DNA from: Flammula alnicola
Lineage: Eukaryota; Basidiomycota; Agaricomycetes; Agaricales; Strophariaceae
Reading direction: 5' to 3'
Length of the DNA stretch: 64,000 nt
NCBI GenBank assembly: GCA_015499995.1
Contig: JADNRV010000059.1
Span: 237,529-301,528 of the forward strand
This document shows, in pieces, positions 8,257 through 47,759 of this stretch. The first letter of the stretch is position 1, and each line of letters starts with the position of its first letter. Under the pieces are notes generated by a model, which saw only the letters and a program-made list of their open reading frames with translations, did not search any database and had not been told where the DNA came from. The position numbers and the translations under genes are program-made.

Positions 8257-9670
8257 ATGCAGGGGATAAAAACACGTTCCACTCATGAAATTTCGCGATT
8301 TCCCAATCAATCAAACTATTACACTAGGATAATGAGAGTAGGCAGCATATCTCGTGCTGGCCGACTAAGTGGATTACACGCGGGAAACCACATAACCTAG
8401 TACAACGGAAGTAACTATCTACGGTCCGGCGGGCCTAGCTAGTAAGCTCAGAAGTACGCGTAGAACTAAGGTTGATGCCAAAGAAGCATGACCTCCATGT
8501 GTACCTACGAATCAAACAAGAGGCTTCGACCGGAGGAACCCATGTAGAATGAGAATCCTGAAGCCTTGAGGCGCTCAGAGTCTAATATGGATGTGGCATT
8601 AGACGCATCAATTGCGACCCAAAGAACATGTGACTGGATAATGCCCATTGTCCAATGCACCCACCTGTCAGATATCTGCGTAGAACGGTCGAGTAATTCA
8701 GTTCCGAATAAACCGATCTCTCGAAGATCATATCATTATAAAGTACGTGGGGAACGCCGCTATAGAGGCGGCAGTTCGGACTTGACCAACGACCATGCTG
8801 CACCGGCAAAAGAGAAACCCGTGCTAAATGTGCCGTGCATCCCAATCGGGCAATAATGTGTCTAAATGTGGACACAACTGTATTGACCCCAAAAGAGGGT
8901 GTTCCGCGACATAGCAGTTCATCCTTGAAACCAAAACATATGCCAGAAATGGGGACTCACCAGTTACCGTTACCGAATGGACCTGTAATCACAACACCAT
9001 GAACCAGTAGAAATAGCGCTATTAGATGCATAGAATCATATGCAACATGTAGGGGCTTGGCCCTCAGTAGGTATAAAATATGCTTGTAACACACATAGTA
9101 GAGTAGGCAATCCACCCCGCAGTTGACGCTTTAAAACCAGTGAAAACACCTAAGGGAATGATTAAACCTTGTCGCACCAGACCCAATTTAATAAAAGACC
9201 AACGTTTGACGCTTCAAAACAGCTTTGCGATCACTGCAAGTTTGAGAAGTAGTTAACTAGAGTTTGACGCATGTTTCTGTAAAGTGTAGCATGCGCCTGT
9301 CATGACCACGTGAAAGTTGTAGTGCATACTCGTCGTGGTCCCTGCATGAAAGTTACAGGTTGTTAAAGTCAAGTTAAAGTCAAGTTCATACCAGTTGTCA
9401 AGTTAAAGGAAGTCCGAGTTTGGCATTGTTTGAGTTAGAAAGTCACCACACCAAGTTCTACAGAACTAAAACCCACCCCATACCAAAACCCACATAGACT
9501 TGTTTTACAAGTCGAAGCACTTCTCCTTTTTCATACTTTACCCCCGAGACTCGCACACAAGACTACGTCTAGTCAAGTTGTTGGTTTTGTGGTTTGGTTG
9601 TGTTGAGTGTAGAGTTCTTTCTGCACCGCTAGCTAGATCATTTCCAATGTAGACGAAACCTAGCACTTTA
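8257..9670 (+). mobile_element. E-family LTR, copy 4 (plus sense), CpG-poor
   Basis: This is the reverse complement of the LTRs at 16883-18329 and 30438-31881, with many substitutions. It starts TGCAGGGG, where the family starts TGATGGGG, and ends CCTAGCACTTTA. It splits the antisense gene of element C from its own promoter region. TATAAAA at 9072-9078 matches the family TATA box. Most differences from the LTRs of element E are CG to TG or CA, so this copy is old or strongly methylated. No target-site duplication is recognisable. Confidence 0.85.
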
Positions 9671-9903
9671 GCGCTTACCGAGGATCAGGATCAGCAATGA
9701 TTAAGGAAACTATTCCTAGGATGGAAAGACCTTAGAACACAAGTTGGCAACTTAAGAAAGCTTGCTAGATAGAAAGTCTTCACCGTGCTTCTCATTACAA
9801 CAACAAGCTTTGTCGTGAGAATGTACGTGCTCCTAAAAGATTGCATAGGCAAATGTTGAACAGAGAAACAAGAATAAGAGACCCTTGATAGTGTGCAATA
9901 AGG
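9671..9903. other. Remnant 5' region of the element C antisense gene
   Basis: This 233-bp stretch lies between the inserted LTR and the hairpin/polypurine tract of element C. It corresponds in position to the 5' flank of the antisense genes in E and B. I see no credible protein in it, although a minus-strand open frame of 77 codons covers most of it. Confidence 0.4.
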
Positions 9904-16882: not shown

Positions 16883-18329
16883 TAAAGTGCTAGGTTTCGT
16901 CTATGTTGGAAATGATCTAGCTAGTGGTGCAGAAAGAACTCTACACTCAACACAACCAAACCACAAAACCAACAACTTGACTAGACGTAGTCTTGTGTGC
17001 GAGTCTCGGGGGTAAAGTATGAAAAAGGAGAAGTGCTTCGACTTGTAAACAAGTCTACGCGGGTTTTGGTATGGGGCGGGTTTTAGTTCCGTAGAACTGG
17101 TGTGGTGACTTTCTAACTTCAAAACAATGCCGACTCGGACTTCCTTTAACTTGATGACTGATACGAACTGTTGACTTTTAACTGGACTTTAACAACCTGT
17201 AACTTTCATGCAGTGACCGCGACGAGTATGCACTACAACTTTCACGCTACCACGACGGGATCGCGCTACAACTTTCACGTGGTCACGACGGGCGCACGCT
17301 ACACTTTACAGAAACACACGTCAAACTCTGGTTAACTACTTCTCAAGCTTGCAATGGTCGCAAAGCTGTTTTGAAGCATCAAATGTTGGTCTTTATTAAA
17401 TTAAGTCCAGTGCGACGAGGTTAAATTGTTCCCTTAAGTGTTTTCACTGGTTTTAAAGCGTCAACTGTGGGGTGGATTGCCTACCCTACTACGTGTGTTA
17501 CAAGCATATTTTATACCTACTGAGCGCCAAGCCTCTACATGTTGCACATGATTCTACGCGTCTAATAGCACTATTTCTACTGGTTCATGGTGTCGTGATT
17601 ACGGGTCCGTTCGGTAACAGTTACTGGTGAGTCCCCGTTTTCTGGCGTATGTTTTGGTTTCAAGAATGAACCGCTATGTCGCGGAACACCCTCTTTTGGG
17701 ATCAATACAGTTGGGTCCGTATTTAGACACATTATTGCCCGATTGGGATGCACGGCACGTTTAGCGCGGGTTTCTCTTCTACCGGTATGGCACGGTCGTC
17801 GGTCAAGTCGGAGCCGCCGCCTCTATAGCGGCGTTTCCCGCGTGCTTCACAATGAGCTGGTTTTTGGAGAGTTCGGCTTGTTCGGAACCGAACTACTCGG
17901 CCGTTCTACGTGTGTAACGGACAAGTGGGTGCGTGGAACAATGTGGATTGTCTGGTCACGTGTTCTTTGGGTCGCGATCGACGCGTCTAACGCCGCGTCC
18001 ATACTAGACTATCCGTGCCTCAAAGCTTCGGGATTCTCATTCTACGCGGGTTCCTCCGGTCGAAGCCTCTTGTTTGATTCGCAGGTACACACGGAGGTCA
18101 TGCTTCTTTGGCATCAACCTTGGTTCTACGCGTACTTCTGAGCTTACTAGCTAGATCCGCCGGACCGTAGATAGTTACTTCCGCTGTACTAGATTAGGTG
18201 GTTTCCCGTATGTAACCTACTTAGTCAGCCAGCACGAGGTATGCTGCCTACCCTTGTTTCCCTAGTGTAATAGATTGATTGATTGGGAAATCGCGAAATT
18301 TCACGGGTGGACCGCGCCGCGCCCCATCA
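16883..18329 (-). mobile_element. 3' LTR of element E
   Basis: In element sense it runs TGATGGGGCGCG to CCTAGCACTTTA. All four family members in the window share the final CACTTTA, and copy 3 with its target duplication shows the LTR ends CTTTAA rather than the usual CA. TTTTATA at 17509-17515 is the TATA box on the minus strand. Immediately left lies a gag relic of another element. Confidence 0.9.
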
Positions 18330-18367
18330 TCTCCCCCACACTTATAATATTGACTGTCCCCAGTCAA
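18330..18367 (-). promoter_or_regulatory. Polypurine tract and inverted repeat next to the 3' LTR of E
   Basis: On the minus strand TTGACTG-GGGA-CAGTCAA (18350-18367) precedes AAGTGTGGGGGAGA (about 18331-18344), which directly abuts the LTR. The G/A-rich strand is the element sense strand, as required for plus-strand priming. Read on the other strand it lies 437 nt upstream of the antisense gene start at 18804 and could also serve that gene. Confidence 0.8.
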
Positions 18368-18803
18368 TGCCGCGTGATCTGAGTCTGTTTCTCCCTAAGT
18401 CCTGGTTGCTGGCCGAAATGCCGCACGGATCTCTCCGTGATTGCTGAGCATTCTTACACTGTCTAGGATCGGTATTTCATCGCGCCGATCAATCCGTTGC
18501 ACATTACATGACCAGATTCGGTCATGACATCATACATCACCACACGCGCCCATTGTATGTTTTTGCCTCAAACTTTAGCGCCCGTCTAGAAGTCAAGGTA
18601 CGGGCAGCGCCCAACTGCTCAAGCTTTAGGCTCGATGCGTGAAACACTTCGTCCCTTGTTCTTCCAGATCTCCGCGTGGTACGTTAGTGGCGCACAGACC
18701 AGGCAATCCCCAATAAATAACGTGTCGCGCCCTCCAGAGTCCAACACTCTTCCACACCACTACCGATTCCTGCTTGTTTTTGACGCTTTTATATTTGTTC
18801 GAC

Positions 18804-20836
18804 ATGTCCTCCCGCGATCTTACCCCCTCGTCTTCGATGGCTGCCGATGTCGGGGTCTTCGACATTTATGAGTTTATACGCCCCGCCTTCGCACAGCTCA
18901 AAAGCTGTTTGCAGGATGGTATTGACCCGGACACTGCTTCTGCAGCTCTCCAAAGCCAACTTTTCCTCATGGTACGTTGCTTCCAGCCTGTACGCGCAGT
19001 CTCCGCTTGTTAACTTATTGCTGCAGGGACGCTTTCTTTCTTTCGCTGATGCCGTGGATAGTGAATATCTGATCCCTGATGATATTCACGCTTTCCGCAC
19101 GCTTCACGCGGACCTCGCCAAACACGTCGCTCCTGACCAACTCGCGGAGCTTTGTAGCGAGAATTGGATTATTGACGACCCCGATCGGGTAGGTCTCAGT
19201 TTCGTTTTACATTTCCCGACCACAACTGACCTGCCTGCTTGTTTGATAGGCCCCCCTTTCCTTGGACTACGAGTTTCCTCCGGCCGTACCTGGGTCGCTC
19301 CCTTTCACGCTTCAAAGGCAGAAGGCAGAAGCAGGCGGAAGACTTCATGCATCGTCAACGCGAGGAACGGGCCCGTCGGGTTGCCGCCCAGAACCTGCGC
19401 GAAGAGCGTAAGCGTCTGGCTGCGGCACGGGCACAAGAGGAATTAGAAAAGGTTGAGCGCGAGGTCGAGGCGCAGCGTCAGGCCGAAGCCGCGCGCCGAT
19501 CCTCCATTGGTCAACAGGCTGCGCTTGACTGCCCCCAGCCTGGTAAGTCCCTCTCGTTTTTGTTCTTTTAGTTGATCTCCCGCCCTTACGGCGCTAGTTT
19601 CACTACTTGACCTAGACGCGCTGATTCCCTTGTCAGAAGGCGACGTTGACGTACTGGACCCTACCCCACCCCTTCTATCGTCAAAGGCCACGGGAAAACG
19701 CAAGCGCGACCCCAGCCTCCGCCGTCCTACCCACAAAACGCCCAAGAGCCGGGCGACGGTTTCCGAGTCAGAGGAGGACGCCGCCCTGCCGGGTTCTGCT
19801 GGTCCGTCTAAACGGACGAAATATGCGCCTTCACGCCCCCACACGAAGATTCGCTCACAAGAGGCGTTTCTGGAAGATGCCCGTTCTTTATGGGAACAGA
19901 CCCCAGCAGGTCTACGCGCCAATCAGCCGCCACCCCTTATTGATGCGGCCCAGCTTAAAGTCTTTCGTCGCGGTTTCAAGCCTCAGGTCGAGTCCCTACT
20001 TTCTGACTTTGTTACGTTACTAAACGAGACCTTTTACGTTTCGCAGATCAATTCGCCTTGTTTTGCATGTGTTATGGGGACACCCAACAGCACTGCAAGT
20101 TCTTAGGTTTTGGTAAGGGGTGCCCCCCTTGTGTTCATCACAAGCGCGGGCGCTGCTCCTTCCTTTGGGCCCCCGAGGAGCGTGCGTATTATCGCGAGCA
20201 CGCTTTCTCTCTGGGACGAGATTCTCTGGCCAGTAAGTCGGGCTGTCCCCTCTTTTTCAGTTTTGGTCTTTCTTTGACTGACCCATTTTATTAGGTTTTC
20301 AGGATGACCTTAGGGACATTCAGTTCCATACTAGCCAAGGCCTTATTTCCGCGCGCCAGGCTGAGACCTCCTTCGCCCAGGCTGACCGCCTTGCTAGGCG
20401 GTTCACCCAGCGCATCTTGGATTTGTACAATGAAGACTTCCCCGCGTCTCTAACACGTTCGCTTTTTACCAGTTCCAAGTGCGTTGACTTCGTACTGGAA
20501 TGCGCGTCAAACGTCGACACTGCTCAGATTGGCTACAACGGTCTCCCGCTCATCGACGAGTTGTTGCTTTTCTTGGATCCCAACGTCTTCGAGTGCCTTC
20601 CAACTACTAGCTGGGAGCACACGGTCCTCCAATACCGCTTGTATCGCGAACGCAAGGTCGCCGCTGAAAAACGCGTGGAACCCAAGGACTTTGTGGATGA
20701 CGAAGCCGAAGAAGCACCAAGCGACGAAGACAGTGACGGTAGTTCTCCGCGTCGTCCTCGCGATCCCGAGGGCCTCTTCAAAGGTTTCAAGGATAGCGAG
20801 GAGTCGGTTGGTAGTCGATCCGACCCGGAGATATGA
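18804..20836 (+). CDS. Antisense gene 1 of element E: coiled-coil, six-Cys protein
   Basis: Six exons can be drawn: 18804-18971, 19027-19188, 19250-19543, 19637-19959, 20047-20232 and 20295-20836. Exons 1 and 2 end on codon boundaries (56 and 54 codons). Exon 3 encodes a long Arg/Glu/Ala-rich coiled coil (RQREERARR...EERKRLAAARAQEELEKVE); its frame differs by one base from that entering at 19250, so a frameshift near 19320 is likely. Exon 4 is basic (KATGKRKRDPSLRR). Exon 5 has FCMCYGDTQQHC, CKFLGFGKGCPPC and RGRCSF, spaced C-x-C-x7-C-x8-C-x2-C-x7-C, resembling a Zn2Cys6 cluster. The last exon is acidic near its end. It lies opposite to gag-pol, between pol and the 3' LTR. Exon number and the Cys exon position match 54176-56146. 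Role unknown; a DNA- or RNA-binding regulator is one possibility. Confidence 0.7.
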
Positions 20837-21078
20837 TCGCGCACCAACGAAGGGTAGCATACTACTCTTTTCATTGGTAAATCTTTATCTTCCTTTCTTT
20901 TTACGCGTCTTTTTCTAACAATCTTTTTAGCTTTTTATTGGATGCTTATCTTTGCGCGTGTCTTTCTTGGTCGGGCTCCTCGTTTTTCTTAACGGGCTGT
21001 GATTTACAGCCCATTTTTATATATATCATACTGCCCAGGGTAGGGGCTAAACTATCCTTATGTATAGATTTTTGGTGC

Positions 21079-21153
21079 GAGGGGTTTTTCACTCTTATAG
21101 TGGAACCCCTCTTTGTTTAATACAGTACGCCAAGTCCATTTGTGAGGACTTGG
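21079..21153 (+). terminator. Two hairpins downstream of antisense gene 1 (E)
   Basis: GAGGGGTT...AACCCCTC with a short inner CACT/AGTG pairing (21079-21111) and CCAAGTCC-N8-GGACTTGG (21130-21153) lie about 240 and 290 nt after the stop codon at 20836. The corresponding gene at 54176 has a similar hairpin series after its stop. They may end or protect the antisense transcript; this is inference from position. Confidence 0.5.
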
Positions 21154-21649
21154 TATTGTCTTGTTGTTTTCTATGCGGGTTTCTAGACAAGCGAACCTAG
21201 CCTCCAACTTGGTGGTGTTATAAAGTCGATCCGGTAACGCTCGATTGTTATTTCATTGTTATCCATTTTCTTGTTCTACCCCAGTCTGCGTCGCCGAAAC
21301 CCGCGTCAATCAAATGTGTTCTATATTAAGACTACTCATTCAATTTTCGGTTAAGTTTTGACCGAGGCTTGCGAATCCTGATTGCCGCTCAGTTATCTAA
21401 TTATAGACTGTCTGTCTTCGACTTGGCCTATTCACTTCAGGTTCCTACTAGATTTGAAGCCGTTTTGTATTGGTTTTTCGGCTCAAGACTTAGCCGTAGG
21501 TGGGCTACCTTGCCTCATAGCTAGTTGATGCATTTTGCGCGTCTTTCTAGCTCCTGTTGTCTCAGATTTATAAGACTTTTCGTCTGTGTTTGCTGCGTAG
21601 ATTTAACGTTCTCAGAATTTTGTGTCTTTTGACCACTCCTTAGTGCCTC

Positions 21650-21687
21650 CCTCCCCCACACTTTACCACCTGACTGTCCTCAGTCAA
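21650..21687 (-). promoter_or_regulatory. Internal copy of the inverted repeat/polypurine signature in E
   Basis: On the minus strand TGACTG-AGGA-CAGTCA (21671-21686) is followed by AAGTGTGGGGGAGGG, with the same order and spacing as the tract beside the 3' LTR but with no LTR here. It lies 253 nt upstream of antisense gene 2. It could act as a second (central) plus-strand primer, as a promoter element for the antisense gene, or be a by-product of module duplication. Confidence 0.7.
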
Positions 21688-21866
21688 ACTTCGAGTGCGT
21701 GCCGTTGGAAGTACCATGTCAGCTAATTTTTCATGTGCAAGGCACCGTCATCGGACCAGGACGCCCGCTTGTAACTAGGCCGTTTCACTCGTAAAATTTT
21801 TCTTTCGCAGGCTCTTGACCCGACACGCCCCGCTCCGTGGCTCGAGCGTCAGAAAGACGCGGGAAG

Positions 21867-21873
21867 TATAAAA
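21867..21873 (+). promoter_or_regulatory. TATA box of antisense gene 2 (E)
   Basis: TATAAAA in GGGAAGTATAAAACCC, 66 nt upstream of ATG 21939. The equivalent antisense genes at 53508 and 51832 have TATAAA 50-85 nt before their ATG, which supports these starts. Confidence 0.55.
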
Positions 21874-21938
21874 CCCAAGTCGACAGACCGGAGAAAGTCA
21901 GGGACTTCAGCGTTTCTAACCTCGCATCCTTCTGTGTT

Positions 21939-23457
21939 ATGTCGTCTCAGGACTCTACGGCCAAAGACGGTTTACCTGGCTTCGACGCAGCTGTCAGCTC
22001 ATTGGACAACTATATCGCGCTTCGTGCGCTTTATGGTCGTTTGCCTAGTGTCACCGTCCGTTACCTGGCTGATGAGCTCGTGGCGGTTGTCAAGCCTATT
22101 GTGCGTAGTGATTGACTCCATCAATGGTACTCAATCCTTTTTAAAGCTGATGCGTCCGTTTCACGCGTTTTTCATAGCTCCCTTGGGCCGCAACAACAGA
22201 CGTACTGCTCGCCAATCAAGCAGCCTGCGACTTGTTACTTCACATGCGCAAAGAACACCTGTCACTCAAAGACCTTGCAGGCCTCGGATACCAGCCACCT
22301 CAACCCCTTATTGCTTTGCTCAACATAACCTATCGAATTTATACTCATAGGAACCCGAAGAGTGCGGAAGCGTTGAAGGGTAAGGAGCGCGACCATATTT
22401 CCGAAGCCCAGCTCAGGGAGAACGCCAAGCGCACCGCCAAGGAGGTAAGATACTACATTTTTCGTTCATCTCTTGTTTAACTTTACTGCCAGGCTCGTCG
22501 TCGCCGCGTCAAATCCAAGGCCGCCCTCACTGATACTGATGAAGACATGGAACCTGTTGTTATTACCGGTGACTGCGAGACACCCCAGTTCAGGGAGAGC
22601 CAGTAAATGGTCCACTCTATTTTGTTTATCCTGACTAACACCAAACTTATTAGATGCATGTCGACGACACCTCTGTCTCGAAGGATGCCAGTCCCGCACC
22701 GTCCGCTGAAGCTCCGAAGGGTAAGACGCCCCCTACTCGGCCCCGTAACATGGTCAAGGAAACCACTGTGCGTGCATTTTTGATTATACGCCTGTTTCTC
22801 AGACCGCTGATTACACGCGTCGTTCATCCTTAGTCCGAGCTCGCCCCGAGGTGCGCTTTCTCCCCTTGGCACTCATCTCAGGCGTAGATACTAACTCCCG
22901 GAATACCGTAAGGCCTCAAAGTATGCTCTTCGTGGTAGCAGCAAGGGGACTATATCCAGCAAGCGCCAGCGGTCCACTGCGTCCATTATGACCGTCACCG
23001 CCAGTCCTTTGCCTGGTACGCTAATTTTCCGCGTGAAACGCTCCTTATGCTCATACGCGCAGCTTCAGCCATTGTTAGTGATCCTCAAGTTGCGGATGCT
23101 CTTGACCGCGTTAAAGCCTTACAGGACGAGGAACAGTTGACTGTTTCTACTCGTCGAGGTATCCTTAAAACGCGCGAGATTCTACTTGGTCAACTTGACG
23201 AACACAACTATCATCTGCGCTACAACCTGCGTATGCGCGAGATAGTTATTGGCGAACTTACTCGCTGGAGCGAGGAGCATGACCCTGGTGCGCGCCCGTT
23301 TGCGCGTGTTTCTAAACCCGGTCTGACGCTCTCATTTTTCAACAGGTTGCCCCGTTCCTCGTTAGACGCGTTAACCGTCCTTTCGTCAGACTTCCGACCC
23401 GATACTGTAGCAAGAGGTTTTTCCACTCCAACGCGCGGAAATGTTCACTTCCAGTAG
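21939..23457 (+). CDS. Antisense gene 2 of element E, multi-exon, helix-rich, unrecognised
   Basis: Exon 1 is 21939-22100 (54 codons, MSSQDSTAKDG...), exon 2 is 22178-22444 and a third starts at 22493; both introns are clean GT...AG. Further small exons follow (around 22654-22718, 22824-22850, 22882-23010). The last large exon is 23057-23300, with a probable intron (23310-23344) before the final residues. The C-terminal part (VADALDRVKALQDEEQ...EILLGQLDEHNYHLRYNL) is helical and charged. The same final exon is found as a relic at 33897-35690, and a related ending occurs at 58077-58636. The stop lies only about 50 nt from the end of pol on the other strand, so the two genes converge. No family recognised. 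Confidence 0.65.
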
Positions 23458-23507
23458 TACATCGTCAATTTGTACTTGTTCGCGTAGAGTTTTTCCCTCA
23501 ATGCTAC

Positions 23508-25300
23508 TTATGCATCTTCATCGCTGTCCGATTCTAAGTCCGGCTCGCTTGCATCGTCTAAGTCTCTAATAGGCACCTTGGCAAATGTCAAGTCTTTGGT
23601 ACCATCATAGTCCTCTTCTCCAGGTTCATCTAAGTCCAGCACTTTTTGTAGTCCTCTGGCAGATATCGCGAGCCAGTCTAATACTTTCTCCGGCAGCTCT
23701 ATCTTTTTACGCGCGTAATAAGGGAGTACGCGGAAAGCGCCTACTTTGTGGTGCCATAAAGCGCCATTCATTTCCGCCACTACATATGAACCGCCCATAG
23801 TTCGTCTTATGACTACTACTGGTCCCACATAGCGTGGCTTCATTTTCTTGTCGAGATTGGATTCAATCGAGCTATTTCGGACCAAAATTAAGTCTCCTGG
23901 TTTGAAATCGAAGTCCTTGATCACCGCCTGGCGATCGTTCTCATATTTCAGCAAACGCGCGGCTTTTTCTTCGCTCATGCGTTCCCTCATTTTGTCAATG
24001 TGGACCGAGTGCTTGGCTAACGCTTTGGCGCGGAAACCAATTAACTCCGCATCTGATAATACTCTGCCTGGTAGTTTAACTAACCAGGTGGCTTCAATCA
24101 CATCTAACGGTACAATAGGATGCGCTGCGGTTACCATGAAGAACGGCGAGCAACCCAACCTTTTCCTAACCGAGATGCGGTCCGCCCACAGTACATGATG
24201 CAGGAACCAGAACCACTTAGCGACATTGCCGCCTGTTGCTTTGTATAACATTTGTCTGATGTCCCAATGCGGCCGCTCGATGGACCCATTCGCCGGGAAT
24301 TGTATGGTGATATGCGTATACCCTTTATACCATACTTGTCCGCTAACCAGCGTACAGCGGCTTTGAAGGGTCCACCATTATCTGTCACAATTTCCACTAA
24401 ACATCCCCAACGGCAAATAATGTCTTCAAACATCCATTTCCCAATTGACGCGGCATCCTCAGTTATGAGCGCTCTCGCCTCAGGCCAGGAAGTTAAATGA
24501 CAACGACCGTGAACAATGTATTTACACCCATTTGACTTAGGCGTCATGTGCATAGTATCTGCGTGGACTACCTGGAATACTGACGGAGTGTGCGTTTCAA
24601 TCGGCGGGATTTCTATTAGCGCCTTTTGGCGTTCTTGGCACATGTTGCAGGTTTTAATATACCATACAACGTCCTTAGCCATCTCAGGCCACCAAAACCT
24701 CTGCCCGATCAATTCTTTTGTTGAGTACACTCCGCGATGTCCCAGACTGTCATGCGCTGATTTTAACATATACATGCGGTGCTCTTTCTCCACAACTAAT
24801 TTGTGCATGGAATTTTCCCCGCGTCGATATAGACGCCCTTCTTTATCCAAGAAGAAGTTACTAGCCCAACGCCTGAACTTTTTATACTCCTTTCCTGTTT
24901 TGCAATGATAGGGTTGTACACTTATATCTTGTAACCATTTCTTTACAATGGGTAACAAGGAATCATAATGTGCGCCGATTTTCCCACGGTGTTCCTCTGA
25001 GTAGGGAGTGCGTTTCTCAGGGCTATCCCTCTCCTCCAGATCAGGAAGTAGTTCATTATTTAATATCTTCGATACCAGGACTGAGACTTGCTCGGGTTTA
25101 TGGTCGGTCTTGCTTTGCCAGAACGTACTTAATTCTGTGCGGTCGTTCCGCGCGTCTTTCTGCGCCTTAAGGGTTTCCGCGTCAAAGTCAGCTATCGAGG
25201 TCGCGAAACCTTCGTAATAGCCTCCCTTGTCATCGATTTTATCATAGAACTCGCTGATTGGGATTGGACGAGGTTGACTCGCGTCTGCCATTACTATCTC
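23508..25300 (-). pseudogene. pol: Integrase of element E (one frameshift)
   Basis: The frame from 25291 to 24131 contains the zinc-binding HHCC part (HDSLGHRGVYST...CNMCQER) and the DDE core: Asp in VVHADTMHM, Asp in IVTDNGGPF, and Glu in the IERPHWDIRQ block. That last block lies in a different frame, so a one-base loss near 24295 breaks the enzyme. The second half (24251-23508) has the GPY/F-type C-terminal domain (PRYVGPVVVIRRT) and an acidic tail (ESDSDEDA). It lacks a recognisable chromodomain. A short segment 'PIPIxEFxDKID-x2-GGY' is duplicated in tandem at 25240-25380. Confidence 0.88.
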
Positions 25301-25323
25301 TATACAGTATCCCCCTCTGGTAT

Positions 25324-26442
25324 CTATTTTGTCGCGGAATTCTTCAATCGGAATTGGCTGAGGCTCAGTTGGGTCCGCAATGATAACTTCAGGCGCCCTC
25401 CTGGGTCCTCTTCGTCTTCATCAATATTAGAGTATTCATCATCCCCTGGGTAACGCTGTCTGCGCGATAATCCATCAGGGCCGAATGTCGCTCCTGCTTT
25501 ATGTCTAAGCGTGAAATGGAATAGCTTGATATTATCTATCCATCTATTAATAGTTGCATTAGGCATCATGTCAGGATTTTCCAACATTCCAATGATATAG
25601 GATGCGTCTGTCTCTACGATGAGTTTTCGCACGCCTATTAGCCAGGTTTTACACGCGTATAACGCCCGCATCATTCCAAATAATTCGCGCTTGGGCTGTG
25701 AGAAGCGTGCTTCTCTCTCGTTAAGGGGTATGGACCCGAAACGCGCGTAGAATTTGTTCTTTGGGTTTTCCGCGTCTTCTTGAAAGATGTAATACCCGAC
25801 CGCTTTGTAGGATGTATCGACAGCTAACACTACCGCGCCTTGTCCATCATAATCAATAGGTCGCAGAGCTTTAACTACTAACAGTCCATCTTTGAGCATT
25901 TGCATACTCTCTTCCTGGTCAGGACCCCATTCAAACGGCGCATCGTCTTTTAATACTTTACTGAGATGCTTGGCTCTTCTACTGAAGTTTGGTATGAAGA
26001 TGCGCAATACGCCCACAGTGCCAATAAACGCGCGTATTCCGCTCTTGTCTTCGCACGGTCCCCAGTTCGTAATGACTTTGATTCTTTCTGTAGTGGGTTT
26101 CCGCCCTTCAAAGGTACACAAGTGCCCTACTACCAGTATTTCACTAGCGCAGATTACGGTTTTATGTCCTGAGAACGTTCCCCCACAATATTTCATTCTC
26201 TGGAGTATGCGGTTAACATTATTCATATGTTCCCATACAAACCGCCGTATCCCCTTATTTTCTGCGATGGTCTCGTATTCACCATCTTTATTTTGGTACC
26301 GCGAAGCTGGACCGCGGACCGGGACATCATCAATGTAAGGGATAGTATAGTCTGGTATTTCTGGTTGTAAGATATGCGTTACATCGTCGTGAAAGATAGG
26401 GACCGAGTTTGTCCAACCCATAGGTAGCGTTACTAGTCTCAT
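25324..26442 (-). pseudogene. pol: Reverse transcriptase palm end and RNase H of element E
   Basis: The stretch starts with RLVTLPMGWTNSVPIFHDDV and has an intact YIDD box (TIPYIDDVPV). The wording 'GWTNSVPIFHDDV' differs from the usual gypsy 'FGL-NAPATFQ', so this belongs to a distinct fungal Ty3-like lineage. RNase H follows: VLAVDTSYKAVGYY (Asp), the Glu in QPKRELFGMM, LIVETDASYIIGML (Asp) and a DGLSR ending. It is joined to the upstream fingers domain by a frame change at about 26445. Confidence 0.88.
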
Positions 26443-28139
26443 CGCGCCAAAGGGGTTTGGAACGTCGTTAAGTCCCTCGAACTTTCCGCGAGTAATCTTT
26501 CGTCATATCCAACAAATAGGTCGAACATACCACCGCACGCTCGCCCCGCAAAATGCGATGCCAATTCGTCCGTCGCGGGCGGTACTCCTGAGTGCGCTAT
26601 GGTCACCGCGTTGAGTGGTTCCAGACTATGCACGATCCTCAGTTTCCCATTCTTCTTTAGTACAGCGAACCAGCGCGAACGATAGGGCGAGTTGGAAGGC
26701 TCATATACATTGGAGCGTCTTTTATCTATGATCATATCACACAATTCCTTATATATTCCTGGCGGGATAGGTATGTTTTTCAACACCCAAGGCTTATGCT
26801 CTATTGTTGGGATTTCTACCGGTGGAAAGTATTCTTCTTTGAAGCGCCCTTTCTCGGTTTCATCCCAGGCGAACGCTTCGTTTTGTAGCATCATAAGGTG
26901 GTGCATTAATTTCTTTTCCTCATCCCACAAGAATTCTTCTGAGTGTACCTCATCAAATTGCTGTTTTCTTTCCTCAGTATATCGCCCTGTAGGTACGAAG
27001 TCCGGTGGATTGGGAGTCAGAGTCGGCATTTCTGCTAAAGGATCACCTTTGATATCACGCTTGATTCTGAAGCGCTCAGGCAAGTCCTGGAAAACTGGCT
27101 TTACTTTCTTTGCCACAGGTTTATACTTCTTTCCCGCGAACTGACTCTTCATCTGAATGATTTGAGCTTTAGTCCTGGGAGGAGACTGCGCCTTTGATTT
27201 GGGTTTTGCGCGGGTTTTTACGCGCGCACCGTCCAGTATTTCCTGCGTGTAAAACTGCTTCCCGCCGTATCGTTGACCCATAATTTCTTTATTTTCTCTT
27301 TTTCGCTATCCTCAATGTCCGCGTGTTCCGCGCTTGTCGAGAACGCGTTCATTAACCCGGCTTGGGTAAATGTTCCATTCTGCGATGTAGTGTATCCTAC
27401 TATCTTCACCTCTTTTGTATTCTCATCATAGTCGAATACCACGGCCGTCTCTCCTTGACTGTTCATCAACTCATCGAGATCTGAAAAGCCTGCCCAGTCC
27501 CTTTCCTTAGGTACTTGGGTGGCCGCCCGCGTTCATAAGTAGGTAACACTACTTTTCGGCCAGACTGAGGGTCAGTCAGTGTGATTGTTTGATCGCCGTC
27601 CGTCGCGTTCTGAATGTTACTTGCGGTTAACACGTCAAACGGACGCCCTAATAGGATTTTATATGCCGGGCCATTTATGATATGGACTTGTAACAAGAGC
27701 GTCATGTCGCGCACTTGAATGGTATATTACGCGCCAAACCTAAGGTTGATTCTATATGGCCTTGGGCGCTTTGCATGTTAATCGTTATTCCGGGATTCCA
27801 GCTGATTCCCAGTGTTACCGCTATATCTTTAGACATCGAGACAATTTGTGACCCGCTGTCCAATAGTGCTTCTTCCTCGTCAACATTGTTAACTGTTGGA
27901 TAGATAGCTCTAAGGGCGTGCGAGTCTCTCGCGCCATAGATAGTCTTCGGTTTCTCTCCTTCCGGTAAATCATTCAGGTACTGCACTATGGGATCATGCA
28001 CCATAATGGCACCCTTTGGGCCATCCTCACAGTCTTCTGTTAGGACCATATAGCCCGCGTACGGTAGATCTTCTAACATTATGCTATCTTCAGGTACTTC
28101 TGCGATAAGTACGTTGCTATTAGCGGGCGCGCTATTCAC
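26439..28139 (-). pseudogene. pol: Protease, linker and RT fingers of element E
   Basis: From right to left: protease with active-site EALLDSGSQIVSM (28139-27702), protease flap and end AYKILLGRPFDVL (27714-27466), a linker (27469-27218), and RT fingers/palm (27281-26439) with RSRWFAVLKKNGKLRIVHSL and the first catalytic Asp in MFDLFVGYDE. The four pieces are in different but overlapping frames, each shifted by one base, either because of single-base indels in the element or in the assembly. Homologous order is kept in element F. Confidence 0.85.
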
Positions 28140-28670
28140 TATTCCTTCATCGCTTTCTGATTCTTCTGAGTCGGTACATCTTCAACCGTGGCGCGAAGTG
28201 GTTGTTCGTGGGCGTAGTAGGAACGCGCACACGCGTAACTTGACGCGCCATTTCTTTCATGACTGCCGGTGATGACCTAGCACTTGACCGATTGTTGCGC
28301 CAATAGGCGTGTTTAGTATGGCTTCGGCAACCTCTCGGTTTAACGCGCCTTTCTGTACTGGGGCCTGAGTTCGGTACGCAGGTCCTTCCTTCTCAGGCGC
28401 CGGTCTCTCTTTGTCTGTTCTCGCAACTTCGGTGAGTGGAGGGACTTCGAGGAATGGCAACTCTGGGGGCGGTTGGGTGTCCGCGGATTCCTGGACCTCA
28501 GGTTCAGCAATTCTAACCGTGCGTTTCGCCGCAGGTCTTGGTGGTATTACAACTTCAACTGTTTTCTTGTTTTTCCGCATGTTTCTTGTCTGACTAAAAT
28601 TATATAGGTCCTCCGGGGCTTTCGATGAAGGGAACTTAGTCATTCTCCCAGCACCAGCTATTCCCTTCAT
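28140..28670 (-). pseudogene. pol: N-terminal part of pol ORF, element E
   Basis: ATG at 28670 lies eight bases after the gag stop TGA (28679-28681). The product begins KGIAGAGRMTK...SKAPEDL, which matches the start of pol in element F (63902). The segment is Pro/Glu/Lys-rich and leads to the protease; frame changes occur between 28260 and 28140. The own start codon suggests that pol is made by reinitiation after gag rather than by ribosomal frameshifting. Confidence 0.65.
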
Positions 28671-28678
28671 TGAACGGT

Positions 28679-30192
28679 TCAGAAATCCGAATCCTCCAGA
28701 TCCTCAGACTCAACACCCCTTGTCCTGCGAGAAATAAGGTATTGATGTACGTCCTCTATGTCAAGGAGGTCCAATAATTCCTCTACTTTATCTTGCGTTT
28801 GGGGCGGTTGCGGCTGAGCGATCTGTGCTAACTGTATAATACCCGGCGCATTTACTCCAGTATAGAAACTGTTTCTATTTGCCGCGGATTGTAGAGCCGC
28901 TGTCGTCTTTTTCTGACACGCGTGTTCTACGCGTTCTTTTGTCGTTGCTCCGCCTTCATATGGAACGGGACGCCCATCGATCATTCTGACGCGCCCTAGC
29001 GAATCTACAGTGATCCAGCCAGCGTCTAGGTGATGTGCACGATGCGAACATTCATTTTTCATATGACCGTCTTCGCCACAGTAGAAACATCCACTGCTTC
29101 GAGGCGCATTGTTCCCGCGTACATCGGCTGCTGTGGTCTATACAGCTGTGGTAACGGTGGACCCATAGGAGGCATAAACTGCTGTTGGCTGACTTGACGC
29201 TGCATAGTGGACTGTTGTTGCATTAGACGTGCCAATTCGCCTAACTGATTAGACATTTTGGCTTCGCGCGCCTCTAGTTGTTTTTCGCGTATATTGAACT
29301 GGTCTTTGAGCGCGGCTACCGTTTGATTTACTTCCTCGATTTTAATAGAGGTAGAGCTGATCCTTTCATAGCCGCCTCCACCGTCCGCATTTTTGTATGT
29401 GACTCGCGAACCCTTAGCCATGTCAATCGCCGCGTCAATGGTCTCATTCAATTTGTACTTGTCTTCTGGTCGTCGGACAGCAGCAGTAGCCGCGCTAGTG
29501 CCGATTCTGTCTAATAAGTCCAGTTGATTTTGTATTAATTGTCTGAACTCGGGGGTCAAGCATGACAGGAACATGTCTACAGCTTCGCGGTTAGACAACA
29601 GTACCGGTTCTTCCTGGAGTCTCAAGGCTTCTGCGCGGAACGCGCGTTTTAACGCTTGGAGATCAGACAAGTCCGACATGCTAATCCCGCGATGCTGTTT
29701 GCACACAGTTTGCAGTCTTTTCAACGAGCCTCTGTCCTCGTCCATGGCTTCTTCATATTCTTCAATAACTTCTTTCTTGAACCTCTTCCAATCTTTGCTT
29801 TTGTAATTCTCCAGCGTTTCCCACTCTCTTTCCGTGCGCGCATCCGCGTATTTCCCCAGCGTTCTAATTCTTTCATCATCGTCTGTAACATTATGCTTCG
29901 CGTATAAATCTTCCATTCGCTTAATGAATCTATTCAACTCTGCCGGTTTTTCCGCGTCAAACTTGGGTGCGTCCCTTGATGAAGGCATAGGCATTTTGGA
30001 TGCCGCTGCTGACATCGTGGCGACCGCTGGCGCTTGAGCAGGAGCAGAGGTTGGGGTAGACATTTGGGAGAAGGGAGGGATTTCGGTAGAGGGGATACTT
30101 CTACGCGTATATTCTCTGGTGTATGGTTCTAATCCTGGAAGAAGTCCTGCGCTTAACGAGTTTTGCGTAAGTCTGGCTCTTGTTTCGGGCAC
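28679..30192 (-). CDS. gag: Gag of element E (two overlapping frames)
   Basis: The capsid-like part is 30192-29059; the first in-frame ATG is 30063 (MSTPTSAPAQAPAV), and the open frame upstream lacks a start. Key blocks are KFDAEKPAELNRFIKRMEDLY, LKRLQTVCKQHRGI and FLSCLTPEFRQLI, followed by a helical region and a Gln/Met/Pro-rich tract. A one-base shift near 29095 then gives a zinc knuckle CFYCGEDGHMKNEC (C-x2-C-x4-H-x4-C) and a C-terminal tail ending EDLEDSDF at 28679. Gag would package the RNA and form virus-like particles in the cytoplasm. Confidence 0.85.
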
Positions 30193-30418
30193 AGAGGAAG
30201 ACGCGGGAACCGTAGTTGCTCGTGCGGTAGTTCTTGATCTTTCAGAATTCGGTTGACTCGACGATGGCCTAGTCTGTCTATTGGTTGACCTACTCGGTGG
30301 AGCAGATGGTCCCGGAATTGTGACCTTTTATGGTCTTGTAATTTTACGCGTCTAGTGCGAACACTAAACTGCGCGTGTTTTTGTTTTTGAAACTCGAAAA
30401 CGACTTGTCCTTTCACCC

Positions 30419-30436
30419 CCCTCGCGGTGGGCTCCA
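30419..30436 (-). promoter_or_regulatory. Primer-binding site of element E
   Basis: On the minus strand, one base after the LTR end (CACTTTAA), the sequence TGGAGCCCACCGCGAGGG follows. Starting with TGG it fits pairing with the CCA end of a tRNA; I cannot name the tRNA without a tRNA set from the host. Its position fixes 30438-31881 as the 5' LTR. Confidence 0.7.
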
Positions 30437-30437
30437 G

Positions 30438-31881
30438 TTAAAGTGCTAGGTTTCGTCTATGTTGGAAATGATCTAGCTAGTGGTGCAGAAAGAACTCTAC
30501 ACTCAACACAACCAAACCACAAAACCAACAACTTGACTAGACGTAGTCTTGTGTGCGAGTCTCGGGGGTAAAGTATGAAAAAGGAGAAGTGCTTCGACTT
30601 GTAAACAAGTCTACGCGGGTTTTGGTATGGGGCGGGTTTTAGTTCCGTAGAACTGGTGTGGTGACTTTCTAACTTCAAAACAATGCCGACTCGGACTTCC
30701 TTTAACTTGACGACTGATACGAACTGTTGACTTTAACTGGACTTTAACAACCTGTAACTTTCATGCAGTGACCGCGACGAGTATGCACTACAACTTTCAC
30801 GCTACCACGACGGGATCGCGCTACAACTTTCACGTGGTCACGACGGGCGCACGCTACACTTTACAGAAACACACGTCAAACTCTGGTTAACTACTTCTCA
30901 AGCTTGCAATGGTCGCAAAGCTGTTTTGAAGCGTCAAATGTTGGTCTTTATTAAATTAAGTCCAGTGCGACGAGGTTAAATCGTTCCCTTAAGTGTTTTC
31001 ACTGGTTTTAAAGCGTCAACTGTGGGGTGGATTGCCTACCCTACTACGTGCGTTACAAGCGTATTTTATACCTACTGAGCGCCAAGCCTCTACATGTTGC
31101 ATATGATTCTACGCGTCTAATAGCACTATTTCTACTGGTTCATGGTGTCGTGATTACGGGTCCGTTCGGTAACGTTACTGGTGAGTCCCCGTTTTCTGGC
31201 GTATGTTTGGTTTCAAGAATGAACCGCTATGTCGCGGAACACCCTCTTTTGGGATCAATACAGTTGGGTCCGTATTTAGACACATTATTGCCCGATTGGG
31301 ATGCACGGCACATTCGACGCGGGTTCCCTTTTGCCGGTGCGGCACGGTCGTCGGTCAAGTCGGAGCCGCCGCCTCTATAGCGGCGTTTCCCGCGTGCTTC
31401 ACAATGAGCTGGTTTTTGGAGAGTTCGGCTTGTTCGGAACCGAACTACTCGGCCGTTCTACATGTGTAACGGACAAGTGGGTGCGTGGAACAATGTGGAT
31501 TGTCTGGTCACGTGTTCTTTGGGTCGCGATCGACGCGTCTAACGCCGCGTCCATACTAGACTATCCGTGCCTCAAAGCTTCGGGATTCTCATTCTACGCG
31601 GGTTCCTCTGGTCGAAGCCTCTTGTTTGATTCGCAGGTACACACGGAGGTCATGCTTCTTTGGCATCAACCTTGGTTCTACGCGTACTTCTGAGCTTACT
31701 AGCTAGATCCGCCGGACCGTAGATAGTTACTTCCGCTGTACTAGATTAGGTGGTTTCCCGTATGTAACCTACTTAGTCGGCCAGCACGAGGTATGCTGCC
31801 TACCCTTGTTTCCCTAGTGTAATAGATTGATTGATTGGGAAATCGCGAAATTTCACGGGTGGACCGCGCCGCGCCCCATCA
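30438..31881 (-). mobile_element. 5' LTR of element E
   Basis: The 1,444-bp LTR matches 16883-18329 nearly throughout. TTTTATA at 31064-31070 (minus TATAAAA) is the likely core promoter for genomic RNA. The right flank (31882 onward) is a spliced gene on the plus strand, unrelated to the sequence left of the other LTR. Confidence 0.9.
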
Positions 31882-33877: not shown

Positions 33878-33896
33878 AGCATCTTTAATGTCAAGT

Positions 33897-35690
33897 GGAA
33901 AAACCTCTTACTACTATATCAGGTCGCTATCAAACAGAGGAATGGTTGAAGTGTCTAACACGGGATGAGACAACCTGTTGGAAAATAGAGCATCAGATAG
34001 AGATCAGAAACACGTTAAAGTGCTAGGTTTCATCTACATTGGAAATGATCTAGCTAGTGGTGCAGAAAGAACTCTACACTCAACACAACCAAACCACAAA
34101 ACCAACAACTTGACTAGATGTAGTCTTGTGTGCGAGTCTCGGGGGTAAAATATGAAAAAGGAGAAGTGCTTCAACTTGTAAACAAGTCTACGTGGGTTTT
34201 GGTGTGGGGCGGGTTTTAGTTTTGTAGAACTGGTGTGATGACTTTCTAACTCAAACTGTGCCGAACTTGGACTTCCTTTAACTTGACAACTGGTACGAAC
34301 TTTTGACTTTAACTTGACTTTAACAACCTGTAATTTCATGCAGGGACCGCGACGAGTATGCACTACAACTTTCATGCTACCACGATGGGATTGCGCTACA
34401 ACTTTCACATGGTCATGACAGGTGCATGCTACACTTTACAGAAACAGGCGTCAAATTCTTAGTTAACTACTCCTCAAACTTGCAGTGATCACAAAGCTGT
34501 TTTGAAGTGTCAAACATTGGTCTTTATTAAATTTAGACTGGTGCGACGAGGTTAAACCTTTCCCTTAAGTGTTTTCACTAGTTTTAAAGCGTCAACTACG
34601 GGGTGGATTGCCTACTCTACTATGTGTGTTACAAGCATATTTTATACCTACTGAGGGCCAAGCCCCTACATGTTGCATATGATTCTATGCATCTAATAGC
34701 GCTATTTCTACTGGTTCATGGTGTTGTGATTACAGGTCCATTCGGTAACGGTAACTGGTGAGTCCCCATTTCTGGCATATGTTTTGGTTTCAAGGATGAA
34801 CTGCTATGTCATGGAACACCCTCTTTTGGGGTCAATACAGTTGTGTCCACATTTAGACACATTATTGCCCGATTGGGATGCACGGCACATTCGGCGCAGG
34901 TTTCTCTTTTGCTGGTGCAGCATGGTCGTTGGTCAAGTCCGAACTGCGGCCTCTATAGCAGCATTCCCCGCGTACTTCACAATGATATGATCTTCGAGAG
35001 ATCAGTTTATTCAGAACCGAATTACTCGACCGTTCTACGCAGGTATCTGACAGGTGGGTGCGTTGGACAATGGGCATTATCCAGTCACGTGTTCTTTGGG
35101 TCGCGATCGACGCGTCTAATGCCACATCCATATTAGACTCTGCACGCCTCAAGGCTTCGGGATTCTCATTCTACACGGGTTCCTCCGGTTGAAGCCTCTT
35201 GTTTGATTCGTAGGTACACACGGAGGTCATGCTTCTTTGGCATCAACCTTAGTTCTACGCGTACTTCTGAGCTTACTAGCTAGGCCCGCCGGACCGTAGA
35301 TAGTTACTTCCGTTGTACTAGGTTATGTGGTTTCCCACGTGTAATCCACTTAGTCGGCCAGCACGAGAGATGCCGCCTACTCTCATTATCCTAGTGTAAT
35401 AGTTTGATTGATTGGAAAATTGCGAAATTTCATGGGTTGAACGCGTCGCGCCCCATCAACATGCGAAACACATATGCACCAGGGTCATACTCCTTGCTCC
35501 AATGGTTAAGCTCACCAATAACTATCTCACACATATGCAAGTTGTAGTGAAGGTGATAGTTATGCTCATCGAGTTGACCAAGCAGCATCTCACACATCTT
35601 AAGGATGCCTCAATGAGAAGAAACAGTTAACTTTTCCTCATCCTGTAAAGCTTTAACATGGTCAAGAGCATCTGCAACTTCACATGAGTA
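33897..35690 (-). pseudogene. Relic of antisense gene 2, final exons, split by a solo LTR
   Basis: Minus-strand sequence 35690-35464 matches the last large exon of 21939-23457 (VADALDHVKALQDEEKLTV..., LLGQLDEHNYHLHYNL). After the LTR at 34015-35458 the match resumes (34014-33897) with the same last intron (CAACAG at its end) and the block AGAGGTTTTTCCACT. Arg codons CGN are repeatedly changed to TGN/CAN relative to element E, and a TGA interrupts the exon, consistent with CpG decay. Confidence 0.75.
34015..35458 (-). mobile_element. E-family solo LTR, copy 3, with 5-bp target duplication
   Basis: Same length (1,444 bp) as the 5' LTR of E, starting TTAAAGTGC and ending GCCCCATCA on the plus strand. 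It sits inside the antisense-gene-2 relic. The flanking pentamers are ACACG (34010-34014) and ACATG (35459-35463), identical except for one CpG transition, and the gene sequence continues correctly across the site. It is CpG-poor compared with the LTRs of E. TTTTATA at 34640-34646 is the TATA box. Confidence 0.9.
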
Positions 35691-37806: not shown

Positions 37807-38230
37807 CATCAGGCTGGCATTTTCACATCCAATACTGGCTGACCTGGCACTTTGTAGGATACTATCAGTATGTGCAGGCTGAGCCAGAGCTAGCAGTTTT
37901 ATTCTAGTGTATGTGCTAGACCTATAAATTAACTTGTCCTAGCAATATGGTGGGAATTGCTATCACTGTAATAAAGCACTGCACAATCATACAATTTAAA
38001 ATACAGTCAAAATAAAGTACAGGTACATATCACAATTGTATCTTAAGCATATCTCTACATAAAAAATAAAGCTCCACCTTTTTATGGTCATATATAGGCA
38101 TAAATAAGCATTTCTCAATTGCTCTTTTTTGGAAGCATCCTGGAGTCATGACTGTCATGTACAAGATGCAAGCATTTTTTGTGCGATGGACTGCTATTTG
38201 TGATGTTTTCTGAGTCATTAAAAATATTAT
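37807..38230. other. No gene seen
   Basis: AT-rich sequence with no supported coding frame or repeat structure. Confidence 0.4.
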
Positions 38231-39281
38231 AAAGTAGCAAAATCTTTTACCACAATATTTACTTGTAAAGCATGGATATTAAAATCCCTGGTAAAATACA
38301 AGTATTACTAATTGGTAAAATCTTTTACTACAGTGTTGACTAGGCAAATATAGTAGTAAAATATGGCTGTAAAAATCATTTATAAAATATACAGAAATGT
38401 TATTAAAAACAAACTTTATATTAGTAAAACATGGCTATAAACTCATTGATAAAATAAATGTGAATATTATTAGTAAAACCTTTACCATCTATGTATACTG
38501 GATAAATATAGTAGTAAAATATGGCTGTAGAATACATTGATAATATATATATAAATGTGTTATGTGTCATTGTCCTTCTTATCTTTTAATCTCTATATGG
38601 AATGCTTTAAGGGTTGTGTCAAGGTGGCAACTGACATGTATTTATTTTTTTGTGTGGGCTTTGTTTGTAACAGACTATGTCCTCAGTAATTGGTGAGTTT
38701 TTCAAGAAGCAATGAACTCTAGACCCAAGTCACATTGAAAGGTGCCATCACTTTATAACACTAATTCTATATACTGCATATATGTAAGCATATACAAAAA
38801 AAAATATAAAGTATGTTTTTAATAACATTTTTGTATATTTTATAAATGATTTTTACAGCCATATTTTACTACTATATTTGACTAGTCAACACTATAGTAA
38901 AAGATTTTACCAATTAGTAATACTTGTATTTTACCAGGGATTTTAATACTCATGCTTTACACATATTTTATCAATGTATTTTACAGCCATATTTCACTAC
39001 TATATTTATCCAGTATATATAGATGGTAAAGGTTTTACTAATAATATTCAAATATATTTTATCAATGATTTCTATACCCATGTTTTACTAATATAAAGTA
39101 TGTTTTCAATAACATTTCTGTATATTTTATAAATGATTTTTGCAGCCATATTTTACTACTACATTTGACTAGTCACCACTGTAGTAAAAGATTTTACCAA
39201 TTAGTAATACTTATATTTTACCATTGATTTTAATATCCATGCTTTACAAGTAAATATTGTGGTAAAAGATTTTGCTACTTT
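38231..39281. mobile_element. Foldback element with arms of about 330 bp
   Basis: The left arm (38231-38560) and right arm (38950-39281) are inverted copies. The outer ends read TAAAGTAGCAAAATC... and its complement ...GATTTTGCTACTTTA. A third, partial inverted segment lies at about 38800-38960. The arms are made of variants of AGTAAAATATGGCTGTAAAA. The centre (38560-38800) is unique and without a gene. A transcript across it could form a long double strand. Target duplication could not be fixed. Confidence 0.8.
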
Positions 39282-39481
39282 ACAAATAGTGCATTTGTTA
39301 TAATCCATACTTTTTTTCTATACTGTACAGTCTATGCACATCCATTTCTATAATTTCAGCTATTATTTGCTCAAATAACCTTCCACATTATTCACTTCAC
39401 TTCTATCTGTTTTATCTACATTTGTTTCACTGATATTGTTTCACTTCCATCCATCTTTAATATGTTTGTACAGCCTTGTGC
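39282..39481. other. No gene seen
   Basis: AT-rich spacer between the foldback element and the miniature element at 39490. Confidence 0.35.
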
Positions 39482-41319: not shown

Positions 41320-41637
41320 TCTGGTGACAACAGAGGAATTTCATACCATTTGTCCTCCTGCAGCCAATTTATTGCCTGCTCAGAGCCGTCTGCAGAAGTT
41401 TCTCTGATCCCATCTGACTGCTGTTCTGATCGGAAAAATTTTCACTTCATATAATTTTGGCCAACAGATGCGCCCTCCCACCACGCAACACTTGTGGTTT
41501 GTTCTTACGAGGCGGACCCCCACCATTTCCCACACCCAACGCTTCTCTGAGCCGCATACCACGTCCCACACAAAATCTTCCAGTCCACACACCTCCACCT
41601 CCTGCACTACCTACACAATCCATTCCGCAACCAACCC

Positions 41638-47757: not shown

Positions 47758-47759
47758 TA

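Follow-up and report, generated by a model that had tools for sequence, protein, structure and literature searches.

We find that a long terminal repeat (LTR) retrotransposon of the fungus Flammula alnicola (Agaricales) carries two multi-exon genes inside its repeats, on the strand opposite to its own gag and pol. The element, here called E, is about 15 kb long and occupies positions 16883-31881 of a 64,000-nucleotide stretch of DNA (the window; assembly GCA_015499995.1, contig JADNRV010000059.1, positions 237,529 to 301,528). The best explanation as a whole, to which we give a probability of about 0.6, is a Ty3/gypsy-type family in which the interval from pol to the 3' LTR houses two resident spliced antisense accessory genes, gene 1 and gene 2. 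An initial annotation had placed the LTRs, primer-binding site, gag-pol and polypurine tract of E on the minus strand and two multi-exon genes on the plus strand within the same LTR pair, and had reasoned that introns in this orientation could survive retrotransposition. Our comparison of genomic copies recovered its gene coordinates exactly and, at the level of sequence, supports its interpretation.

The LTRs, primer-binding site, polypurine tract and gag-pol expected of a Ty3/gypsy-type element lie on the minus strand of the window copy, as annotated. The 3' LTR (16883-18329) and the 5' LTR (30439-31881) are 98.48% identical over 1447 columns. A polypurine tract (PPT; AAGTGTGGGGGAGA on the minus strand, 18330-18343) adjoins the 3' LTR, and a primer-binding site complementary to a tRNA-Lys-like 3' end (30420-30436) adjoins the 5' LTR. 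A pattern joining the complement of this site to a T-loop has 12 genomic matches at ≤1 mismatch (9 exact), compared with 0 for a reversed control. By eye, one of two matched slices (L041) can be read as a tRNA-Lys(CTT) gene with an intron and the other (L040) is not readable as a tRNA; ARAGORN called no tRNA gene on either slice. Reading along the minus strand, we find gag open reading frames (ORFs) at 28679-30327, one with a zinc-knuckle-like stretch seen by eye; an aspartic protease-like ORF at 27702-28181; reverse transcriptase (RT) and RNase H ORFs at 25324-27305; and an integrase region with the pol C-terminus at 23508-25417. Pfam recognises the protease (1.3e-4, below the curated cut-off), RNase H (2.4e-9) and integrase (Integrase_H2C2, 2.9e-18), with weak matches for Ty3_capsid (0.027), RVT_1 (E 0.12) and rve, and the pol order is thus protease-RT-RNase H-integrase. 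The flanks of the window copy, CCGG and CCGC, may be an imperfect target-site duplication.

In the space separating pol from the 3' LTR, the plus strand carries the two antisense genes, whose exon models we derived by aligning divergent genomic copies. Gene 1 (18804-20836) has six exons and five introns (exons at 18804-18971, 19027-19188, 19250-19542, about 19598-19986, 20047-20232 and 20295-20836), with a motif of six cysteines in exon 5. Gene 2 (21939-23457) has seven exons and six introns (exons at 21939-22100, 22178-22444, 22493-22602, 22654-22767, 22834-23015, 23063-23305 and 23346-23457). In gene 1, the exons are conserved and the introns have diverged, ungapped intron identity to E being 41-50% in four comparisons. 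The initial annotation had asked for intron positions to be compared among copies, and they are shared. Gene 1 introns 1, 4 and 5 are GT-AG in every judged row (14, 13 and 13, respectively; the tally for intron 1 includes C6, whose exon 1 is missing, and that for introns 4 and 5 leaves out C601). At the projected columns, GT-AG is present in 11 of 14 rows for intron 2 and in 10 of 14 for intron 3. In the intron 3 exceptions the AG lies a few bases off, the intron 2 donor GT of C745 falls in an alignment gap, and C819 and C601 deviate at introns 2/3.

Open frames and substitution patterns indicate that both genes encode proteins. The spliced frame of gene 1 is open over 573-588 codons in 6 of 14 rows (C47, C745, C734, C71, C776 and C534), and that of gene 2 over 366-397 codons in 8 of 15 (C745, C734, C71, C6, C776, C246, C223 and C702, the last open with an early end at 377); gene 2 is also open up to the contig end in C47 and is interrupted in the other six rows. 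The window copy itself shows small length differences from the other copies, and neither of its frames is intact: an in-frame stop is first met at codon 163 of the 576 of gene 1, and in gene 2 at codon 237. In each of the eight comparisons made, differences are at least twice as frequent at third codon positions as at first or second ones. We computed the ratio of nonsynonymous to synonymous divergence (dN/dS) for a chosen subset of pairs among the named copies with dS >0.02, leaving C601 out for gene 1 as its row is interrupted and poorly aligned. For gene 1 the ratio is 0.06-0.12 between classes where dS is computable, dS being infinite for several pairs; for gene 2 it is 0.02-0.15 in most pairs and reaches 0.22-0.37 only in close ones (C776-C534 and E-C223). 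The third-position excess, the low dN/dS and the spliced frames kept open across copies together exclude chance open frames and, judged by these patterns, both are multi-exon genes under purifying selection. Two models were discarded along the way: a home-made exon-intron predictor, applied to the window copy by itself, merged the two genes with filler sequence into a single 1202-aa model and was dropped in favor of the copy comparison, and an alternative acceptor for gene 2 exon 5 was rejected as it brings a stop at 248 aa.

We next turn to the host assembly (74.4 Mb, 861 contigs). The genome search scores best candidates only, and all locus counts are therefore lower bounds. We find at least about 19 gene 1 loci (places assigned one per contig from 99 matching rows), at least 16 gene 2 loci (the window has two gene 2 fragments in addition) and no fewer than 41 matches to the LTR. 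All 16 gene 2 loci are on gene 1 contigs. Copies lacking the antisense genes had been named beforehand by the initial annotation as the finding that would speak against it; what we found is that gene 2 accompanies gene 1 at 16 of its 19 loci, with equal position, orientation and introns. Gene 2 is missing at three gene 1 loci: C9, whose sequence is unrelated past the second of two palindromes described below, C214, which has an internal deletion, and C117, which was not read. An E-like RT lies no farther than 20 kb from gene 1 at 12 loci, and at 11 of them gene 1 is antisense to and 3' of the RT. The exception is again C9, where gene 1 is 18.7 kb from a separate truncated RT unit and similarity ends inside the last gene 2 exon. 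The remaining 7 of the 19 loci have no E-like RT within 20 kb, several of them owing to contig ends. The full-length copies that the initial annotation had called for exist: both LTRs enclose both genes in four copies, namely the window copy, C745, C534 and C246. In C745 the LTRs differ at 2 of 1445 positions (99.86% identity), the 4-bp target-site duplication CCGT stands on both sides, and both spliced frames are open. Judged from these features, C745 is a recent insertion that carried both intron-bearing genes. Because so young a copy holds both genes open, introns have survived retrotransposition, as had been predicted. The geometry of the element offers a reason for this, since its genomic RNA holds the complement of each intron, which escapes splicing; the reversed introns would stay in the RNA and be copied faithfully.

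Two other loci deserve mention. C214 (L021/L022) looks like an internally deleted derivative, in which gag and a piece of the protease gene that are identical or nearly identical to the window copy precede the remains of a gene 1 from another class, and then an LTR. C300, with three E-type LTRs 15.2 kb apart, was considered as a tandem element and rejected, as 6 kb read there contain no gag-pol or antisense match; it is perhaps a large tandem repeat carrying solo LTRs.

These data bear on three other accounts of the antisense genes. Nested elements are dense in this region, and two host genes or another element might have landed once, by chance, on the opposite strand of E. We regard this as scarcely credible given that about 19 gene 1 and 16 gene 2 loci have a fixed position and orientation and the same introns, and that LTRs stand on both sides of the genes in E, C745, C534 and C246; segmental duplicates of one nested copy are excluded by the divergence of gene 1. 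So far as sequence can tell, the layout is confirmed as real and not a chance nesting. The genes could also be recently transduced host genes, cargo without function for the element, as the capture of host genes by LTR elements does occur (PMC7264820, accessible part). This we consider improbable: capture of an mRNA would strip the introns, which are present; the cysteine motif and an intron position are common to three element families (see below); and all 19 gene 1 loci adjoin an E-type LTR, the palindrome, gene 2 or pol.

An equally poor fit is the account in which the ORFs are incidental and the antisense RNA itself, acting as double-stranded or small interfering RNA or by interference, is the functional product. 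Regulation by antisense RNA has been proposed for other elements, according to the accessible part of PMC7264820, but the low dN/dS and the third-position excess point to translation, and so does the fact that, although synonymous sites are saturated, 6 of 14 rows keep an open spliced frame of 573-588 codons. The evidence for translation leaves room for an additional role of the RNA.

Returning to resident, protein-coding antisense genes, we find that gene 1 behaves as an exchangeable cassette. Between E and C734, pol dS is 0.006-0.044 and gene 2 dS is 0.119, whereas the proportion of differing synonymous sites (pS) in gene 1 is 0.78, beyond Jukes-Cantor correction. An identity profile of the same pair in 150-base steps gives 85-96% in the LTR, 76-82% at 18.38-18.68 kb, 34-71% at 18.68-21.38 kb and 86-100% beyond, which places the cassette at 18680-21300 around gene 1. 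C214 is an extreme case: it has no synonymous difference from the window copy along 250 codons of gag, and its gene 1 is only about 70% and 67% identical over the two parts retained. The groupings of the two genes also conflict. In gene 1 exons, the nearest relatives of E outside its own class are C12 and C47 (76.8 and 76.7%), while in gene 2 E is 97.1% identical to C734 and 89.2% to C12; C12 and C745 are 67.8% identical in gene 1 and 96.4% in gene 2. Because gene 1 is saturated next to a near-identical pol, the borders are sharp and the groupings disagree, gene 1 is, on these comparisons, a cassette that has moved between element lineages by recombination. Rapid evolution in place would be in keeping with the strong divergence of the gene 1 proteins (65-67% identity to the first of four aligned). 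We consider it very unlikely, as it cannot easily produce saturated synonymous sites in E-C734 at a pol dS of 0.006-0.044, nor the sharp borders and conflicting groupings, all of which recombination between co-resident elements explains. The cassette is bounded by two blocks, each a PPT-like run with a palindrome, and has partly conserved shoulders of ~300 bp, a setting that plausibly suits template switching. As the probable route of cassette exchange we propose either template switching when two RNAs are packaged together or gene conversion within the shoulders on either side.

The palindrome, TTGACTG-N4-CAGTCAA, marks the upstream side of both genes. Its first copy (18350-18367 in E) lies a few bases inside the 3'-LTR PPT and ~450 bp upstream of the gene 1 ATG in 15 of 15 regions examined. 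The second (21670-21687), beside an internal PPT-like block on the minus strand (21651-21663), lies ~270 bp upstream of the gene 2 ATG and is found in 14 of 15 regions. It is followed on the plus strand by a TATA-like box (AGTATAAAA, 21865-21873), again in 14 of 15 regions, the exception being the truncated C9; the box is suggestive of a promoter of the antisense genes' own. The core of the palindrome, TGACTGNGGACAGTCA, has 109 copies in the assembly, compared with 0 for a reversed control. For locus assignment we used 100 of the 109, which may account for some misses, for example C819, where inspection of the region shows the palindromes to be present. Of these 100, copies stand within 4.5 kb upstream and in the expected orientation at 17 of 19 E loci and, in the two further families described below, at 22 of 27 F and 28 of 44 G loci, and never in the wrong orientation. 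Our script left 26 of the 100 unassigned, and by our own count 15 of these belong to the second block of E-type elements. The PPT and palindrome at 21651-21687 may be a former 3' end or a central PPT; a former 3' end may in turn suggest that the element was built from two antisense-gene modules.

What the palindrome does can be read in two ways, as a candidate binding site of the gene 1 protein or as a hairpin at the PPT. Three examples folded as single-stranded RNA give a hairpin, UUGACUG-NGGA-CAGUCAA (z -1.6 to -2.2), which might aid plus-strand priming and be unrelated to the antisense proteins. The palindrome stands beside a PPT-like block in the copies read, and C543, C45 and the window F locus each have one copy, which is at the LTR-side PPT. 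Set against this, the second copy, a long way from the LTR and ahead of gene 2, is retained in 14 of 15 E-type regions, and a perfect palindrome fits a dimeric DNA-binding protein equally well. The stem is invariant by construction of the search pattern, and its invariance therefore carries no covariation information. We judge the priming hairpin to have slightly less than an even chance, and a role of the RNA at the PPT appears as possible as that of a DNA operator.

The antisense genes of E appear to share their origin with those of two other families, F and G. The initial annotation had seen the layout of E recur in further elements of the window (its B, C and F, for which it gave no coordinates). 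We find fragments only: an F-type antisense gene at 54176-56197 on the minus strand, with a palindrome, a PPT and one LTR, and a G-type antisense exon at 6605-7111, also on the minus strand. There are at least 27 F loci in the assembly and 44 G loci after merging, some of the latter weak (down to E 1.7e-4). The palindrome adjoins the antisense genes of F and G as well, bringing to three the families that have it. At 18 of the 27 F loci there is no E-like RT within 20 kb; at 7 of the remaining 9 the F gene is antisense to the RT and on its 3' side. The other two are C601, with an RT 16.5 kb away, and the window F locus, where an LTR separates the gene from the neighboring RT. Across 52 residues of the cysteine motif, E gene 1 is 37% identical to the F gene (E 4e-8, a single comparison). 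The motif CX2CX8-11CX8CX2CX7C followed by S/T-F is present in E, F and G, and in the examples read from all three a phase-0 intron (phase judged by eye) ends four codons before the first cysteine. The G exon has no significant BLASTP similarity to E gene 1, and only the cysteine motif and the intron connect G with E; a homology between E and G in gene 2, suspected by eye, was not supported on comparison. The F and G regions contain further antisense ORFs. The common intron before the motif in three families points to a long time depth for these genes.

Several observations weigh against a resident, functional pair of genes as set out above. C714 is a sister element with an E-like LTR (90%) and an RT 63% identical to that of E, and has no antisense gene in the 6.4 kb read; it is also missing among the gene matches and the listed palindromes. 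Because of C714, the genes do not seem to be required by every relative. Gene 1 has no Pfam family at E≤1 and no PDB sequence match, and its structure model is poor, with a mean predicted local distance difference test (pLDDT) score of 48. In the protein database, where we scored the best 8000 word-sharing candidates, gene 1 matches nine clusters, all of them F. alnicola hypothetical proteins, and its conserved part as query gives 8 hits, to F. alnicola only, with all 2372 candidates scored. These database models share most exons with ours and differ at the intron 3 acceptor, and one of them (P0006, from C223 and of the class of the window copy) translates through intron 4, the donor of which is poor (GTCGAG) in this class. 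Gene 2 has no match among 7997 scored candidates despite its seven conserved exons and low dN/dS, and its C-terminus varies among copies. The case for a cassette is affected as well, since pol has itself diverged in the more distant pairs (dS 0.027-0.151 for E-C776, 0.20-0.45 for E-C745 and 0.31 for E-C12, where gene 1 synonymous divergence runs from 1.66 to saturated), so that only close pairs, E-C734 among them, give a strong contrast. Lastly, the young copy C745 is the one without an exact second palindrome, and 11 of the 100 listed palindromes have no gene of these families beside them and are not part of a second E block either (C32:647, C73:31824, C79:469043, C110:89427, C142:63877, C170:44494 and 45086, C221:57264, C334:1270, C416:31205 and C487:23844). 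The latter possibly belong to further families.

How might such genes serve an element? We suggest that their transcription would start from promoters close to the palindrome and PPT blocks, one just inward of the 3' LTR and one upstream of gene 2. The gene 1 protein has a basic stretch (AGKRKR), a predicted long helix (residues 132-215), the six-cysteine motif and an acidic C-terminus, and we tentatively regard it as a possible nuclear regulator of the element, a role for which the odds are somewhat below even. A more specific and rather unlikely extension is that, in a fungal gypsy clade, the two genes have evolved into an antisense control module in which gene 1 would be an exchangeable, highly diversified locus for identity, copy control or superinfection exclusion. 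Its promoters would be marked by the palindrome beside the PPT, recombination between co-resident elements would keep gene 1 diverse, and a newcomer with a novel gene 1 class would escape repression by residents, a logic comparable to that of immunity or incompatibility alleles.

The remainder of the window is crowded with related fragments. A solo E-type LTR at 34013-35458 sits between two diverged, opposite-strand gene 2 fragments (33894-34014 and 35476-35680), as if inserted into another gene 2 copy. A plus-oriented E-type LTR (8275-9673) lies beside a G-family palindrome and PPT block (palindrome at 9905), with fragments of several families interleaved. At 41551-48223 on the plus strand there is a gag-pol of another clade (RT 73% to C568/C590), which F-type antisense genes (52208-56581) and one LTR (56616-58076) adjoin; the pol of F seems to be missing. 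Nested direct and inverted repeats occupy 38219-39282, in an AT-rich 2-kb bin (30% GC).

The arrangement matters for several reasons. Element E is a natural record of introns that have outlasted repeated reverse transcription by lying on the strand left unspliced in the genomic RNA. To our knowledge, antisense accessory genes elsewhere have never been tested for recombination or maintained diversity, and the exchange of gene 1 between near-identical elements is a sign of both. With defined alleles and a candidate binding site, the role of antisense genes for retrotransposons becomes testable.

Finally, we compared the antisense genes of E with known systems. Fungal Zn(II)2Cys6 proteins are an obvious point of reference, with a spacing of CX2CX6CX5-12CX2CX6-8C. 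The gene 1 protein resembles them in its six cysteines, in the CX2C ... CX2CX7C pattern and in looking nuclear, but its spacing is CX2CX8-11CX8CX2CX7C and it has no Pfam match, which sets it outside that class. Elements of the human T-cell leukemia virus (HTLV) type have a spliced antisense gene called HBZ. As in E, the antisense gene is at the 3' end, in HTLV with an antisense promoter in the 3' LTR (PMC7264820, accessible part); the proteins, which were not compared, are others. Extra ORFs are also described in rotifer elements (PMC5408684, accessible part), and MpSaci was considered as a further possible precedent. Among plant elements with antisense ORFs of the aORF-3R type, the accessible part of PMC7264820 describes maize Grande (gene23), rice RIRE2, Silene Retand and PvRetro13, the antisense gene of Grande having its own promoter and a nuclear protein. 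E differs in having two multi-exon genes, one of them an exchangeable cassette, and searches that need shared 5-residue words gave no plant match to either gene, the hits being to F. alnicola only or none. The closest parallel is the Boty-like elements of the ascomycete Botrytis cinerea, fungal LTR elements with an extra antisense gene, brtn, between pol and the 3' LTR (Zhao et al. 2011, PMID 21802103, as cited in the accessible parts of PMC8365987 and PMC7264820). Boty has one such gene, whereas E has two and is found in a basidiomycete; no Botrytis protein is among the matches to gene 1 or gene 2, again within the limited sensitivity of shared 5-residue words and with brtn itself not compared. 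Our literature search found no fungal, basidiomycete or intron-bearing antisense case by title or by the opening of the abstract, subscription papers being thinly covered. The initial annotation had supposed that intron-rich antisense pairs in a fungal element were undescribed. For the spliced pair this holds in what we searched, while an antisense gene in a fungal LTR element is already in print in the form of brtn. As far as our search reached, then, genes of this kind were already known, and what element E adds to them is a spliced pair, the exchange of one member as a cassette, and the palindrome.

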